Below are positions 4,425-61,567 of a DNA stretch of 64,000 nucleotides, one piece after another. The DNA lies in contig NZ_AJKI01000044.1 in assembly GCF_000259075.1 (NCBI RefSeq), forward strand, positions 1 to 64,000. The letters are read 5' to 3'. This DNA comes from Marinilabilia salmonicolor JCM 21150. GTDB lineage: Bacteria; Bacteroidota; Bacteroidia; Bacteroidales; Marinilabiliaceae. The notes beneath the pieces were generated by a model. That model saw nothing but the letters and a program-made list of their open reading frames with translations. It searched no databases and was not told the origin of the DNA. How positions within the stretch are numbered: position 1 is the stretch's first letter; each line of letters begins with the position of its first letter. The translations under genes and the position numbers were made by a program.

Positions 4425-4433
4425 CAACATCAA

Positions 4434-4484
4434 AGTGGATGGATTTGCCTGCTTGCAACCACTATAAAACAATGCTAAAATGCG
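4434..4484 (+). promoter_or_regulatory. SAM-II-like riboswitch upstream of metK
   Basis: The leader has the conserved layout of the SAM-II class: GTGG at 4435-4438 pairs with CCAC at 4459-4462, the loop contains ATTTG and GCTTGCA, and the 3' part has TAAAA and GCTAAAA (4474-4480). SAM-II RNAs bind S-adenosylmethionine in a pseudoknot and repress genes of methionine and SAM metabolism, which fits the metK gene downstream. Recognition is by remembered family consensus. The second pseudoknot stem (P2b) is not convincing by eye. GCTAAAA is also one arm of a separate hairpin. Confidence 0.72.
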
Positions 4485-4508
4485 ATTTTAGCTTGCCTTT
4501 TAGTTTTT
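4474..4508 (+). terminator. Candidate attenuator hairpin overlapping the riboswitch
   Basis: GCTAAAAT at 4474-4481 pairs perfectly with ATTTTAGC at 4485-4492 around a GCG loop, followed by the T-rich TTGCCTTTTAGTTTTT. The left arm is the conserved GCTAAAA of the SAM-II core, so ligand-bound and hairpin forms should exclude each other. A second long-range pairing is possible between GGATGGA (4437-4443) and TCCATCC (4508-4514). The tail is interrupted, so termination strength is uncertain. Confidence 0.45.
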
Positions 4509-5890: not shown

Positions 5891-5902
5891 GCTCATTTTT
5901 AG

Positions 5903-6076
5903 CCTGGTCTATTCATGAGTTTTCGTTATGAGATGTTTAAATACCAATAAATACGGGCAACCGCAAAGAAAATTGATGAAGGGAATAATAATTTATTTTC
6001 AAGTCAATTTTATTGAGGATGCCTGTATTTAGCCGGTAGTTGAACATTGTAATAGATAATTTATGAATAGTTCAGG
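5903..6076. repeat. Family A 174-bp MITE-like element, copy 1
   Basis: One of three elements of exactly 174 bp (others at 18131-18304 and 19878-20051). The ends are inverted repeats, CCTGGTCTATTCATGAG and TTATGAATAGTTCAGG, and the interior is largely self-complementary. This copy is inverted relative to the other two. TTAG directly abuts both ends, a possible target duplication. There is no reading frame, so mobility would need a transposase encoded elsewhere. It fills most of the gap between metK and the ATP-grasp gene. Confidence 0.8.
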
Positions 6077-6148
6077 TTAGAGGGTTTTAAATTTCTTTAT
6101 CGCTCATTCCCTTCTTTTTATACTTGCTTAGGTGGTGTTTGCCAAAAT

Positions 6149-9768: not shown

Positions 9769-9810
9769 TTTGGGTAAACAGGCTGAATTTAAAAACTAGA
9801 ATCTAAATAG

Positions 9811-9960
9811 TCTCTGTCCATAAACTAAGCGTTTTTCACGTGTTTGAACTAGAAAGTTCAAATTCAAGGCGTGTGAAAAATCTAAACCGCAGAATACTAA
9901 TGTATTTGAGGATTTAGATTTTGAGCAGCAACGCAGAAGTTGGACTTTATAGACAAACTC
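9811..9960. repeat. Family B element, core type I, copy 1
   Basis: A 150-bp unit nearly identical to 31287-31436. The ends are inverted (CTGTCCATAAACT and ACTTTATAGACA). Inside are nested palindromes, such as TTTTTCACGTG with CGTGTGAAAAA and AAATCTAAA with TTTAGATTT. It sits directly beside a type II unit and shares end sequence with it. No coding capacity is seen. Confidence 0.85.
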
Positions 9961-9969
9961 TAAATAGAG

Positions 9970-10126
9970 TCTGTCTATAAACTAAGCAAAATTTGTTTTT
10001 AGTCATGTTTCTGGTCAGAAAGTGCCAATTGCTAGGCTTGCGAAGCCGCCAAAAACGGAGTTTACTAATCGTAAATGAGTATTTTGGCGGCAAGCGTAAC
10101 GACGCAAGTGGTACTTTATGGACAGA
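9970..10126. repeat. Family B element, core type II, copy 1
   Basis: A 157-bp unit related to 31140-31276 and 40688-40844, with inverted ends TCTGTCTATAAA and TTTATGGACAGA. The core folds into a long stem, GCCGCCAAAA at 10045-10054 with TTTTGGCGGC at 10082-10091, capped by an inner TTTAC/GTAAA hairpin and flanked by GCTTG/CAAGC. The other copies keep this fold despite changed bases. It ends 15 bp before the flippase start. Confidence 0.85.
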
Positions 10127-10141
10127 ATCTAAATAACATTC

Positions 10142-18130: not shown

Positions 18131-18304
18131 CCTGGTTTATTCATAAATAATTTATTCCGATGCTCAACTATCTGAGAAATACAACCGTCCTCAACAAAAT
18201 GGATTTGAAAATAATTTATTATTTTCTGTACCCATTTTGTTTGCGGTTGATTGTATTTCTTGATATTTGAACATCTCATTACAATAATTCATGAATAAAC
18301 CAGG
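18131..18304. repeat. Family A 174-bp MITE-like element, copy 2
   Basis: Same length and ends as the other two copies (CCTGGTTTATTCATAA to ATGAATAAACCAGG), same orientation as copy 3. It lies between the NlpC/P60 stop and the abgT stop; the abgT stop codon (TTA on this strand, 18305-18307) is the first triplet after the element. With copy 3 it brackets abgT. Confidence 0.82.
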
Positions 18305-19849
18305 TTAGAGATAAATACCTTCTCCCACTCCAATGGGAAGATCAAGCCAGAACCATACAAACAATAGTACCAGCCACATCAGGAACAATACGATGGCGTA
18401 GGGCAATAACAATGAGATCACTGTGCCAATGCCAACTTTTTTATCGTATTGCCGGATCCAGCCAATTAATAGCGGAAAATAGACATAGAGCGGGCTGATG
18501 GAATTGGTGATGCTGTCGCCAACCCGATACATTAGTTGTACAAAGGCGGGTGAGAATCCCAATTGAGCAAGCATGGGGATAAAAATCGGGGCGAAGATGG
18601 CCCATTTGGCAGAACCACTTCCGATAAATATATTGATAATGGCTACCAGCGTCATAAAAAGAGTAAACATAAAGGGACCTGTAAGTCCGCTCGCCTGTAA
18701 AAAATCTGCTCCGTGAATGGCCAGAATGGTGTCGAGTCGCGACCAGTTAAAGAGATTGATGAACTGTGCAACCACCAGCATCAGGACTATATATCCCGAA
18801 AGGTTTTTCATCCCTTCTCCCATGAAATTGATGACATCATCGGGGTGCTTAATGCTGCCTGTGGCTTTGCCATAAAAGTAGCCCGGAATGGCAAAAAGGA
18901 AAAACAGAATGGGTACCAGTCCCCGCAAAAACGGCGATGGGACGATTCCTCCTGTTTCCTGATTTCGAAGGGGGCCCCAGGCGGGAATGGTGAGTAATGA
19001 AATGATCGCAATGATGAGAATGGCCGCAATTCCGGCATGTCTCAACCCTTTTCGTTCTTCCGTGGTGAGAGCGTGGGTGTCGGGAACTTCAATTTCATCC
19101 TGCGATCCCATGGAAAATCGCTTTGTTCTCGGAATTGTATAGCGGGTCACTACGAATGCTCCTCCCAATCCAAGTAAAATGGTGGATACAATCATGAAAT
19201 ACCAGTTGGCGGTTGCGCTAACTTCTCCAACGCCTGGGATTTTTGATGTTACTTCGGAGCTGATACCTGCCAGCAGTACATCCGTGCCGGCAATGAAAAA
19301 ATTTGCCGTGAATCCTGCCGTTGCTCCTGCATATCCTGCCACCAGGCCGGCAATGGGGTGGAGTCCCATCTGGCTGAATATCAGTGCAGCTATTGGTGGA
19401 ACAATGACCACTCCTGCATCAGACCCGATGTTACCGCAGGCCCCGATAATAAAGATCACGGGAAGCACTACCTTACGAGGAACTGAGAAAGCCAGATTGC
19501 GCATTACCACTGAGAGAAGACCGCTTTTCTCAGCAACCGAAACGCCCATCAGCATTACCAAAACCAGGCCCAACGGTGCAAAATGGGCAAAGTTGGTAAC
19601 CATCTCCTGAAGGAATCTTCGCAAGCCGTCTCCCGAAATCAGGTTCTGGGCTTTTATGATTTCTCCGGTTGCAGGATCGGTGGCCTGTACTCCAAAAAAG
19701 GAGGTGATGAAACTGATGAAGACAATAAACACAGTAATCCACACAAACATCCAGAAGGGATGTGGCAATTTGTTACCCATGCGTTCTATCCAGTCAAGAA
19801 AACTGCTGCTCTTTTCTTTTGAAGTAGTGATTTTTCCGTTGGTTCCCAT
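18305..19849 (-). CDS. AbgT family transporter
   Basis: A 514-residue inner-membrane protein with about 9-11 helices and two hairpin regions, of the AbgT/MtrF family. Known members import p-aminobenzoyl-glutamate or export antimetabolites such as sulfonamides. Family segments include FAPLGLVLVMLMGVSVAEKS, GSDAGVVIVPPIAAL and GSGSAKWAIFAPIFIPML. Substrate is not known here. I start at the ATG at 19849 (MGTNGKITT), because the upstream ATG at 19891 lies inside a family A repeat. The stop codon touches another family A copy. The gene thus sits as a cassette between two repeats. Confidence 0.9.
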   Translation of the reverse strand: MGTNGKITTSKEKSSSFLDWIERMGNKLPHPFWMFVWITVFIVFISFITSFFGVQATDPATGEIIKAQNLISGDGLRRFLQEMVTNFAHFAPLGLVLVMLMGVSVAEKSGLLSVVMRNLAFSVPRKVVLPVIFIIGACGNIGSDAGVVIVPPIAALIFSQMGLHPIAGLVAGYAGATAGFTANFFIAGTDVLLAGISSEVTSKIPGVGEVSATANWYFMIVSTILLGLGGAFVVTRYTIPRTKRFSMGSQDEIEVPDTHALTTEERKGLRHAGIAAILIIAIISLLTIPAWGPLRNQETGGIVPSPFLRGLVPILFFLFAIPGYFYGKATGSIKHPDDVINFMGEGMKNLSGYIVLMLVVAQFINLFNWSRLDTILAIHGADFLQASGLTGPFMFTLFMTLVAIINIFIGSGSAKWAIFAPIFIPMLAQLGFSPAFVQLMYRVGDSITNSISPLYVYFPLLIGWIRQYDKKVGIGTVISLLLPYAIVLFLMWLVLLFVWFWLDLPIGVGEGIYL

Positions 19850-19877
19850 GTTCTTTTTTTTACTAAAAGTTATTAAA

Positions 19878-20051
19878 CCTGAACTATTCATAAATTATCT
19901 ATTACAATGTTCAACTACCGGCAAAATACAGGCGTCCTCAATAAAATTGACTTGAAAATAAATTTTTATTCCCTTCATCAGTTTTCTTTGCGGTTGCTCG
20001 TATTTATTGGTATTTGAACATCTCATGACGAAAACTTATGAATAGACCAGG
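19878..20051. repeat. Family A 174-bp MITE-like element, copy 3
   Basis: The ends are CCTGAACTATTCATAA and TTATGAATAGACCAGG. The sequence is close to the reverse complement of copy 1. TTAAA abuts both ends and may be a target duplication. It lies just upstream of abgT, so it could carry or displace that gene's promoter. Confidence 0.82.
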
Positions 20052-20075
20052 TTAAAGGTATCCTCAGGTTCAAAT

Positions 20076-31081: not shown

Positions 31082-31139
31082 GATTTTCCCAAAAATGTGT
31101 GATGAATTAAAAAATGAATAAATTATCGCATCTATTGTC

Positions 31140-31276
31140 GGATCAGAAAATGCCAGTTTCAAAGCCTGCCCCGATTTTTTATGGGGGCTTGCGAAGCCGC
31201 CAAAAACGGAGTTTACTCAGGTAAATGAGTATTTTGGTGGCAAGCGTAACGACGCAAATGGCACTTTATGGACAGA
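31140..31276. repeat. Family B element, core type II, copy 2 (left end diverged)
   Basis: It shares the core stem GCCGCCAAAA with TTTTGGTGGC (one G-T pair), the inner TTTAC/GTAAA hairpin and the right end TTTATGGACAGA with copy 1. Its left inverted end is not recognisable, and a short GC-rich insert forms an extra hairpin. It is followed within 10 bp by a type I unit, the reverse of the order at 9.8-10.1 kb. The pair accounts for the gap 31082-31449. Confidence 0.8.
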
Positions 31277-31286
31277 CACTAAATAG

Positions 31287-31436
31287 TATATGTCCATAAA
31301 CTAAGCGTTTTTCACGTGTTTGAGATAGAAAGTTCAAATTCAAGGCGTGTGAAAAATCTAAACCGCAGAATACTAGTGTATTTGAGGATTTATATTTTGA
31401 GCAACAACGCAGAAGTTGGACTTTATAGACAAACAC
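31287..31436. repeat. Family B element, core type I, copy 2
   Basis: A 150-bp unit nearly identical to 9811-9960, with only a few base differences. It ends 13 bp before the wbpD-like start, so it lies in that gene's leader. Confidence 0.85.
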
Positions 31437-31449
31437 TAAATAGTTATTT

Positions 31450-36921: not shown

Positions 36922-37167
36922 AATTACATAATGTTGTTTTGATAAAGTAATGTTGGATTTTTAAAAGTTCGAAGGTCTTTAAGCAATAGCCTGGGGCAAC
37001 GCCGCAGGGAAATTGTAATAAATACATACCCCCTTCTCATTATTGATCGCGTTGTGACAATAATGAGAAGGGGGAGGGGGATACCTCTAAAACCAGGGCG
37101 TTGCCCTGGGCTATTGCTCTCAGGCTTTCAGCCTGTTTAAACCTTATCTGTCTTATGTATAAGGTAG
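36922..37167. repeat. Family C nested palindromic repeat
   Basis: The outer arms GCAATAGCCTGGGGCAACGCC (36983-37003) and 37097-37117 are inverted with 19 of 21 bases matching. Inside is a perfect 17-bp inverted repeat, 37029-37045 with 37058-37074, starting CCCCCTTCTCATTATTG. Left and right flanks recur together at 61497-61567 without the middle, and the right part recurs at 122-184. It occupies the gap between the second polysaccharide block and the MATE gene. A transposase-independent or RAYT-like repeat is possible; no such transposase is in the window. Confidence 0.75.
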
Positions 37168-40484: not shown

Positions 40485-40682
40485 GGTGTAATATTTTTTT
40501 GTGAATAAATTAGTTCTCCCATAACAGGGTTTTTCCTTTTAAAGGAATTTATTAGGTTTAACGTTATAGTTGGGTGTGAATTGCAAAAATGTTATTTTTA
40601 ATCATGGTGTGCATTAAAACAATTAATCGAGTGCAAGGGTGTTAATGGTTTTGTGTTTAAGGTAGCTAAGGCAATGACTGCT

Positions 40683-40849
40683 TAGTGCCCGTCTATAAAG
40701 TCAGGAAATTTTCTGGCTTGAGTTGTGTCTGTTCAGAAAGTGCCAGTTACAAGGCTTGCGAAGTCCGAAAATACGGAGTTTACTTTTCGTAAATGAGTAA
40801 TTTTCGGACAAGCGTAACGCAGTAAATGGTACTTTATGGACAGACACTA
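40683..40849. repeat. Family B element, core type II, copy 3
   Basis: The core unit 40688-40844 is 157 bp, the same length as copy 1. Outer inverted ends (TAGTGCCCGTCTATAAAG and CTTTATGGACAGACACTA) extend it to 40683-40849. The central stem GTCCGAAAAT (40763-40772) with ATTTTCGGAC (40800-40809) differs from copy 1 at several paired positions but remains fully complementary. The DUF2157 stop codon (CTA, 40847-40849) lies inside its right end. The remaining gap 40485-40682 holds nothing recognised. Confidence 0.85.
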
Positions 40850-41863
40850 CTTAATTATTTCTGCTCTTCGGCCCAACAACCAGAATGAGCCTCCCAGCAA
40901 GGCAAAAAAGAGAGCCGGATGCAGAGGTTCCCATAAGAACAGGAAGACCTGGGTGTAAGCATCTGCTATTAAGGCTAAACCTCCCATCCACATCCACTCT
41001 TTGTTGCTGAGCTTTTTCCCGGCAAACCAAACGGTCACTCCAAGTGCTCCCATCAGTAGTCCCCAGGGAAGTAACGACAGAGATGATGCTTCTTCCCATG
41101 AGTCGAGGGTGTTGTGGTTTCCAAACAAGGCAACTCCCCATAAGGCCAGCCAAAGAAAGAGCCATCCTGTACGCTCGGTAAGCCTGGCAAATTCAACCTG
41201 TTTTCGGGTTCTTTTTAGCCACATTCCGGTAAACAGGGGTATCAATGAGAAAAACAGATATCGTAACGCAAGGTTCATTCCCAGCCATCCGGTTTCGCTG
41301 TTTTTATCGGGCGAGCTTTCAATGCCCAGCCAAAGCATCAAGGCTGCCCAGCCTATCCCGGAAAACAGTATGACTTTGAAAAACCATGACAGGAGAAAGG
41401 CATGAACGGCAAAGATGACAATCAGAAATGTCTCTCCAAAACCGGACAGTCCGGATATTTTTCCGAAATAGTTGAGTGCTCCGCCAAAGGCAATGCTTCC
41501 CAACACCAGCAGTGCCTGCATAGAAATGTGTTGTTTCTTGCGGTGCGACGGCATTTTTCGGGCACCAAATACAAATCCTGCCGATAAAATTAGTAGTAAA
41601 ATAAGAATGGCCAGGTCTGACAGACTGAACAGGCGCTCAAACAATTCCAGAATCCACTCATCAGCTACCAAGGTAAGAAAAGCGGTTACCACACTAATGA
41701 TGGCCAGAATCATCAGGTACTCGGCAACCTTTTTCCAGTTGATGGTTTTTATTTCCAAACTTTCTTTCAGCTGATTGCTTTTTTCTTCAGTGAGGAGATG
41801 CTCCTCTTCCCACCAGTCAATCAGCTTTAGCGTGGTCTCTTTCTGTTTGCGGTTCAGCTTCAT
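40847..41863 (-). CDS. DUF2157 membrane protein
   Basis: A 338-residue protein with a soluble N-terminal helix region (LIDWWEEEHLLTEEKSNQLK) followed by about 9-10 membrane helices, the layout of DUF2157 (PF09925). The function of the family is unknown. The stop codon lies in the end of a family B repeat, so the original C-terminus may have been altered slightly. It follows the histidine kinase gene by 80 bp on the same strand. Confidence 0.82.
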   Translation of the reverse strand: MKLNRKQKETTLKLIDWWEEEHLLTEEKSNQLKESLEIKTINWKKVAEYLMILAIISVVTAFLTLVADEWILELFERLFSLSDLAILILLLILSAGFVFGARKMPSHRKKQHISMQALLVLGSIAFGGALNYFGKISGLSGFGETFLIVIFAVHAFLLSWFFKVILFSGIGWAALMLWLGIESSPDKNSETGWLGMNLALRYLFFSLIPLFTGMWLKRTRKQVEFARLTERTGWLFLWLALWGVALFGNHNTLDSWEEASSLSLLPWGLLMGALGVTVWFAGKKLSNKEWMWMGGLALIADAYTQVFLFLWEPLHPALFFALLGGSFWLLGRRAEIIK

Positions 41864-59923: not shown

Positions 59924-60267
59924 TACGGGGTAGCTTTAATGGTCAAATAATACAATCAATTTTAATTGTACAAAAAATCTTCCTTCCTGATAATACAAGA
60001 AGAAAGTAACATACATAATTTATGTATTCAGGTTAAGGGATAGGGTTAAAAAAAGTTACAGAATAAAACTCTTAAAAGTTTATACGTAACTTTTTTTGAA
60101 ATGTTTTGGTTTTCAGCAGGAATAATTAGGACTAGCAAAAATAGAAAAAAAACAATACAAATTCGAAAGTGTGAAATATTCTTACGGGAAGTGCATGGAG
60201 GTTAACGGAGAAAAATGAATGTTTAATCAAATTGGGGAATGAAAGGCTGAAATTCTGAGAGCAAAAG

Positions 60268-60286
60268 CCCAGGGCGACGCCCTGGG
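60268..60286. terminator. GC-rich palindrome downstream of mscS
   Basis: CCCAGGGCG pairs with CGCCCTGGG around a single A, flanked by AAAAG and TTTTG. It lies 34 bp after the mscS stop on that strand and could terminate it, or be a family C remnant (it shares the CCCAGGGC core). The rest of the gap 59924-60319 contains two lone sequences like family A ends, at 60015-60037 and near 60290-60306, and no other feature. Confidence 0.5.
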
Positions 60287-60319
60287 TTTTGACAATAAAC
60301 CAGGTTAAGCAAAAAGGAT

Positions 60320-61496: not shown

Positions 61497-61567
61497 ATAC
61501 ATAATGTTGCTGTGTTTTTAAAAGGCCAAAGGTCTTTAAGCAATAGCCTGTCTTATGTGTAAGGTAG
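61497..61567. repeat. Family C repeat, internally deleted copy
   Basis: It matches the left flank (ACATAATGTTG, then AAGGTCTTTAAGCAATAGCC) and right end (TGTCTTATG..TAAGGTAG) of 36922-37167 but lacks the palindromic middle. It ends 2 bp before the stop codon of the PorE-like gene. The remaining gap 61241-61496 shows no gene. Confidence 0.7.

Follow-up and report, generated by a model that had tools for sequence, protein, structure and literature searches.

The stem that a first-pass annotation had singled out in the window (the whole stretch of 64,000 nucleotides of Marinilabilia salmonicolor JCM 21150 analyzed here) is the middle part of a longer hairpin of 123 nt (40725–40847) inside a 163-bp element. 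This element, designated B, is a MITE with a TANNTA target duplication. Covariation between genera supports selection on the fold of its core; within this genome such selection is not shown. The best explanation of the data taken jointly, which we regard as fairly probable, is that B and its sibling family A are non-autonomous DNA transposons (MITEs), the fold being kept for the element's own spread and a DDE-type transposase being supplied in trans.

MITE families B and A in the window and the genome

The window contains three B elements and two elements of family A. Their cores were scored with two covariance models, R1 and R2, the latter built from A2, an alignment of copies outside known Bacteroidota (37 rows, among them L192 of unstated phylum; 32 of the rows are distinct):

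9810–9960, plus strand: family A element 1, adjoining copy 1; TAAATA at 9961–9966 is common to both, and the other flank is TAAATA at 9804–9809
9859–9945, plus strand: core of family A element 1, in no training set (R1 65.8 bits, E 7.9e-14; R2 57.1 bits, E 2.3e-14)
9967–10129, plus strand: copy 1, a 163-bp B element between TAAATA at 9961–9966 and TAAATA at 10130–10135
10026–10113, plus strand: core of copy 1 (R1 95.3 bits, training row; R2 77.9 bits)
31136–31279, plus strand: copy 2, B element with its left end replaced, start approximate; right flank TAAATA at 31280–31285
31180–31263, plus strand: core of copy 2 (R1 72.3 bits; R2 58 bits)
31286–31436, plus strand: family A element 2, adjoining copy 2, flanked by TAAATA at 31280–31285 and 31437–31442
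31335–31421, plus strand: core of family A element 2, in no training set (R1 61.9 bits, E 7.2e-13; R2 55 bits, E 1e-13)
40679–40684, no strand: left target-duplication copy of copy 3, TGCTTA, one base off the right copy (sequence, family statistics)
40685–40847, plus strand: copy 3, B element of 163 bp with ends GTG..CAC (sequence and genome-wide copy alignment)
40725–40847, plus strand: hairpin part of copy 3, 123 nt (fold)
40744–40831, plus strand: conserved core within copy 3 (a training row of R1, 101.2 bits; R2 85.4 bits, E 5.6e-23, outside R2 training)
40763–40809, plus strand: central stem, internal loop and inner hairpin of copy 3 (sequence, covariation)
40848–40853, no strand: right target-duplication copy of copy 3, TACTTA (sequence)

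On the window R2 recovered all five elements, with no sixth at E up to 10. BLAST of the whole genome with copies 1 and 3 gave at least 48 and at least 45 matches, respectively (best 40 of 204 candidates scored each); merged with the fetched loci, these made up 106 non-overlapping matches, of which 71 spanned the core and were aligned. The genome searches reported here scored at most 20–150 candidates, and counts are lower bounds where that number was reached. With R1, at least 144 places were found in the source genome at E up to 0.01 (150 candidates scored).

The GTG..CAC ends align among the B copies, starting with GTGTCTGTCCATAAAG or close to it, and thus form terminal inverted repeats. Among the 60 copies with both ends readable, the NN letters of the flanking TANNTA-like hexamers are identical in 44, while shuffling gave a mean of 8.1 and a maximum of 17. 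Of 61 listed copies, 36 agree in all six letters; copy 3 is not among them, as it differs at one base. At 163 bp (copies 1 and 3) the element is short and carries no transposase gene. Family A has similar ends and adjoins B with TAAATA in common.

No mobilizing enzyme was found in searches for the DDE_Tnp_1 family and for exact end patterns: none of 10 DDE_Tnp_1 loci of four genomes, and none of 25 exact-end loci of three genomes (read for genes at end combinations other than those of 381–982 bp), contained a partner transposon with B ends. A DDE_Tnp_1 element at G000:C18 was rejected as a parent, since its ends begin with TAGTGTCTATTAATATT and only the first letters agree with B, and an end pair at C1:20754–22891 was rejected as an autonomous copy, enclosing an ordinary gene for a 551-aa protein.

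Another MITE-like family in the window, of about 183 bp and with inverted ends, is represented at 5898–6078 (minus strand), 18131–18313 and 19878–20060. Two direct copies of it flank a frame for an AbgT-type transporter (18305–19891).

Covariation of the central stem and structure of the core

Direct reading bears out the base changes described earlier. The stem arms are GCCGCCAAAA (10045–10054) and TTTTGGCGGC (10082–10091) in copy 1, and GTCCGAAAAT (40763–40772) and ATTTTCGGAC (40800–40809) in copy 3; the two copies differ on both sides at pairs 2, 4, 5, 6 and 10, numbered from the base, so that five of the ten pairs are changed, and all ten are Watson–Crick. In copy 2 (31196–31205 and 31232–31241, TTTTGGTGGC) pair 4 is G-T, again as reported. 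Three copies are insufficient to prove selection. Compensated changes among the copies of one genome are non-independent events, which is a pitfall for such readings; between genera the question is testable.

Covariation was tested in the manner of R-scape, with substitutions shuffled along a FastTree tree and a 5% family-wise threshold. The own-genome set comprised 62 of 69 analyzable copies (60 distinct), seven of other arm length having been dropped. None of its 5,050 column pairs exceeded the threshold, an outcome that the first-pass annotation had itself named as speaking against its reading, and which is explained by stem types being inherited as blocks.

Between genera the result was different. 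In a set of 45 representatives that were not hand-picked, together with copy 3, two of 3,570 column pairs passed, both in the central stem, where ranks 3 and 4 also fell; the same two pairs passed in 25 rows below 78% identity. A hand-picked alignment, A1, gave five significant pairs out of 4,186, all of them structural. A1 has 27 rows, comprising copy 3 and 26 of 46 representatives, including L232 from a Candidatus Delongbacteria MAG and L028 trimmed by five bases; the 20 left out were copies with inserts, decayed copies, near-duplicates, two copies with mixed arms (L145 and L151) and L241 of Halomonas. Exclusion of mixed-arm copies favors structure, and therefore the test had been repeated with 45 of the 46 representatives, only L241 being left out. 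In a gap-free anchored set of all taxa (46 rows), none of the 1,953 pairs was significant, probably owing to a loss of register between stems that differ in length. Paired cells amounted to 88.5% in A1, compared with 75.0% after shuffling, and to 84.1% vs. 68.0% in A2, an alignment fitted to the model. The support for selection on the fold comes from covariation between genera beyond the tree-aware null, not from the three copies in which it had first been read.

Most stems fall into two types. Among 197 distinct cores, both arms belong to type 1 in 93 and to type 2 in 58; in 26 neither arm fits a type, and in 15 one of the arms could not be classified. The remaining five mix the types, all in Anaerophaga and all different, which indicates that unpaired stems persist. 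At least one non-Watson–Crick pair among the nine stem pairs occurs in 84 of the 197 cores, 15 of which have three to six. The mixed arms and the imperfect pairing speak against the explanation preferred here. Copy 3 appears to carry the stem of an amplified subfamily rather than a local double change.

From outside inward, the core comprises a variable stem, AAG, a GC/GC helix whose 3′ strand carries an AAC bulge, then a short helix of TGC/GC(G or A) and the variable central stem, followed by an internal loop GGA/GA, a G-U pair, TTTAC/GTAAA and a loop. In A1 and A2 the G-U pair is exceptionless and TTTAC/GTAAA nearly invariant, while the pair just below the internal loop varies between A-U, G-U and G-C. 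The annotation was right that the letters of the inner TTTAC/GTAAA and of GCTTG/CAAGC are kept, but the latter are probably not the lower helix, as another pairing scores better across genera. The version with TGC/GC(G or A) and GC/GC around the AAC bulge had a covariation score of 0.334 vs. 0.160 in shuffled alignments (none of 500 shuffles as high), GCTTG/CAAGC one of 0.264 vs. 0.198 (9 of 500), and the minimum-energy version one of 0.086 vs. 0.119 (482 of 500).

Amid the variable stems the loop letters AAGGC / AACGC and CGGAG-TTTAC / GTAAA-TGAGTA are fixed. In 213 distinct cores, chosen by the central pattern and not by the arm motifs, AAGGC (one mismatch allowed) was present in 188, AACG at the expected distance in 131, and both in 117; the reversed arm pattern had no match. 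Small AGCCTGCCCCGAT..GGGG inserts occur at the AAGGC or AAC loop in copy 2, L019, L100 and L129, as if these loops were insertion-prone; the small insert of copy 2 lies at about 31164–31187.

A known Rfam family was rejected as the identity of the core, with no match to it above gathering score in the window or in the loci searched. The window at this score gave SAM-II only, away from the repeats; 10 loci gave rRNA, RNase P and tRNA only; and seven loci searched at E up to 5 gave 11 matches, each below its own gathering score. The SAM-II riboswitch is located at 4429–4488 on the plus strand (60.3 bits vs. a gathering score of 44).

Occurrence of the core in other taxa and likeness to ERIC

A core of about 87 nt is common to family A and to repeats of Pseudomonas, Modicisalibacter, a Mariprofundales MAG, Alistipes and Clostridium magnum. 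The exact centre pattern, searched over genome contigs, occurred in at least 106 stretches, largely of Marinilabilia and Anaerophaga; the matches listed also include Pseudomonas, Halomonas, Salinicola, Modicisalibacter, Mariprofundales, Bdellovibrionales, Clostridium magnum, Alistipes and others. R1 at E up to 10, a level that includes chance matches, gave 28 matches in Salinicola, five in a Halomonas MAG, 62 in Pseudomonas alcaliphila, 25 in Clostridium magnum, 66 in Modicisalibacter, at least 150 in the Mariprofundales MAG and 37 in Alistipes. In the Mariprofundales MAG (G046, about 2 Mb; L263, L270, L276 and L283) the matches, at least 150, are mostly to a shortened core of 66 nt.

Among 198 genomes drawn from the phylum and searched with stricter filters at E up to 1e-5, 23 matched: the source genome and 22 of a single other family. 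The genomes of this family (f33) are small (1.8–2.8 Mb), their matches are weaker (39–53 bits), and it may hold a further branch. In G022, a genome of the same family as the source genome, the core lies inside a 123-bp element with ends GGGAACCTCTAAAAA; there were 168 exact end matches, and 10 elements were read. A 4-bp duplication is identical in five of the 10 (shuffled mean 1.12, shuffled maximum 5), compared with two at a width of 2 bp and none at 3, 5 or 6 bp. Many end matches of this genome (loci L290–L319) lie about 100–120 bases after the beginning of a contig, which looks as though the assembly had been interrupted at these elements. The copies of Pseudomonas, Halomonas and Alistipes have yet other ends, where ends are recognizable. 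The presence of the same core between different ends makes it unlikely that the core is kept for one transposase.

The centre of the E. coli ERIC element reads GGAG-CTTAC-ATAA-GTAAG-TGA and is accompanied by AAGGC and AACG arms. A common motif, GGAG-YTTAC-n-GTAAR-TGA plus arms, matched both E. coli ERIC loci (L248 and L249) and none of 20,000 dinucleotide shuffles, and two control motifs had no match in 3.0 million bases. This motif was written from the B family and then widened for the ERIC spacing and the C-G apical pair; since its gaps were set after ERIC had been seen, the match is support and not a blind test. R1 scored the ERIC loci at E 3.8e-4 and 2.6e-3 in 1,088 bases, with small, correctly placed scores, and R2 at 4.5e-4 in both, as a local match only; in 169 kb the ERIC covariance scores were not significant (E 0.059 and 0.41). 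We call the B core ERIC-like; its common descent with E. coli ERIC is probable.

ERIC (also IRU or RU-1), a 127-bp enterobacterial MITE, resembles B in being a long imperfect palindrome in intergenic regions, with target duplication reported in the consulted part of a review of bacterial MITEs (PMC2229807), and its length is close to the 123 nt of the B hairpin. It differs in its terminal repeats, those of B being GTGTCTGTCC.., and lacks the bulged G and A that B has beside the tandem GA loop; B in turn carries an additional arm of some 40 nt on its left side, besides the TANNTA duplication. The range of ERIC is given as Enterobacteriaceae and Vibrionaceae in the consulted part of a 2024 review (PMC10969869). 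Should the two belong to one lineage, the group extends far beyond the two families named there, and those relatives whose ends differ allow the requirements of a transposase to be told apart from those of the core. Only tentatively do we propose one old selfish hairpin module present in several phyla, with ERIC as its enterobacterial branch, that survives by changing its ends and is thereby moved by different transposases, while a conserved host factor binds the fold; for its success the folded core would then be decisive, and no single transposase.

REP repeats (the GTAG (RAYT) and CGTC superfamilies) are likewise palindromic, and the consulted part of one study describes sub-families whose stems have alternative residues that remain complementary, GT pairs being frequent (PMC3733652). 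Compensated stems as such are therefore already known from repeats. In contrast to B, which has a target duplication and no Y1 neighbor, REPs are 20–40 bp long and lack inverted ends of the B kind. From the same phylum as B come BrickBuilt of Porphyromonas gingivalis and MITECca01 of Cardinium, IS-derived MITEs that are short, non-coding and bounded by inverted ends (PMC4596501; PMC9769881); their ends resemble a known IS of the host, whereas none was found for B, and the consulted parts of these two papers describe no shared core. Searches of the open-licence literature on the core letters, on ERIC primers with MITE, and on ERIC-like or folded MITEs gave no account of the B core. As far as this literature goes, three things are new: the cross-phylum core, the letters that ERIC has in common with it, and the fact that its ends change.

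Possible role of the fold

According to the consulted part of the MITE review, transposase-driven movement of bacterial MITEs, ERIC included, was without experimental support, and the mode of movement of such repeats had thus been open (PMC2229807). For families A and B, a DDE-type transposase supplied in trans would act on the element ends, and a partner would recognize the fold and its loops, so that the core would be kept for the element's own spread, whichever transposase moves it. The surroundings of 49 copies agree with this. Neighboring frames are co-oriented upstream in 27 of 49 and downstream in 29 of 49, with no gene-orientation bias (++ 21, −− 14, −+ 8, +− 6), and in three copies there is overlap with a frame at least 100 aa long. 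With neighboring frames in all orientations, the fold is probably kept for the spread of the element itself.

A host-regulatory role was rejected on these counts. It would take the form of a transcribed hairpin that tunes the mRNA stability of its neighbors and is kept by the host, and it finds a precedent in Yersinia, where, in the consulted part of the same review, ERIC RNA acts on upstream mRNA and folded MITE RNAs are known for ERIC (PMC2229807). The sense orientation of the Clostridium magnum core in a 16S-23S spacer also points that way; against it stand the genes in every orientation around the 49 copies and copy 3 itself, which is antisense to both adjoining frames, making the whole quite improbable. 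Mutation without selection is another unlikely source of the pattern: hairpin-templated repair or template switching would copy one arm onto the other, giving compensation in one step and a functionless fold. The block-wise change of five pairs between copies 1 and 3 and the inheritance of the types as blocks would fit, but repair of this kind would be expected to remove the internal loops as well, and the letters CGGAG / TGAG and AAGGC / AACG are kept in distant relatives.

The hairpin might also be the single-stranded DNA substrate of a Y1/RAYT transposase, a kind of enzyme that the annotation had proposed to look for, and the genome does have seven Y1 matches. None of the seven loci carries the core or an element end within about 1.5 kb, as would be expected of a REP/RAYT repeat flanking its Y1 gene, and the element makes a target duplication, which IS200/IS605-type insertion is not known to do. 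A RAYT origin of B was rejected on these grounds, and we consider the substrate reading very improbable. A different palindrome is present near two of the seven loci. It is similar to a palindromic repeat around GCGTTGCCCTGGGCTATTGCT, and this repeat, rather than B, may thus be the one linked to RAYT; in the window it is found at 94–183, 36951–37003, 37078–37167, 60242–60292 and 61508–61550.

If the fold of A and B is kept for their own spread, its form may be a folded transcript or single-stranded DNA, with the balance tipping slightly to RNA. At the pair below the loop, G-U outnumbers A-C by 15 to 1 when distinct rows are counted in A1 and A2. With the invariant pair left out, G-U also leads across the whole structure (50 vs. 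24 and 25 vs. 20), but in the B stem it has no clear excess (37 vs. 26, p 0.21). The Clostridium magnum cores lying sense in the 16S-23S spacer add to the slight preference for RNA. Counting against the best explanation, the invariant loop letters could be a protein site in double-stranded DNA.

The 16S-23S spacer of Clostridium magnum holds two cores, both on the same strand as the rRNA (L193, 2364–2583; L222, 4326–4545). In the window, the right flank of copy 3 overlaps the stop-codon end of the adjoining frame (40847–41863, minus strand), and the end of a frame is likewise only a few bases away from several further copies.
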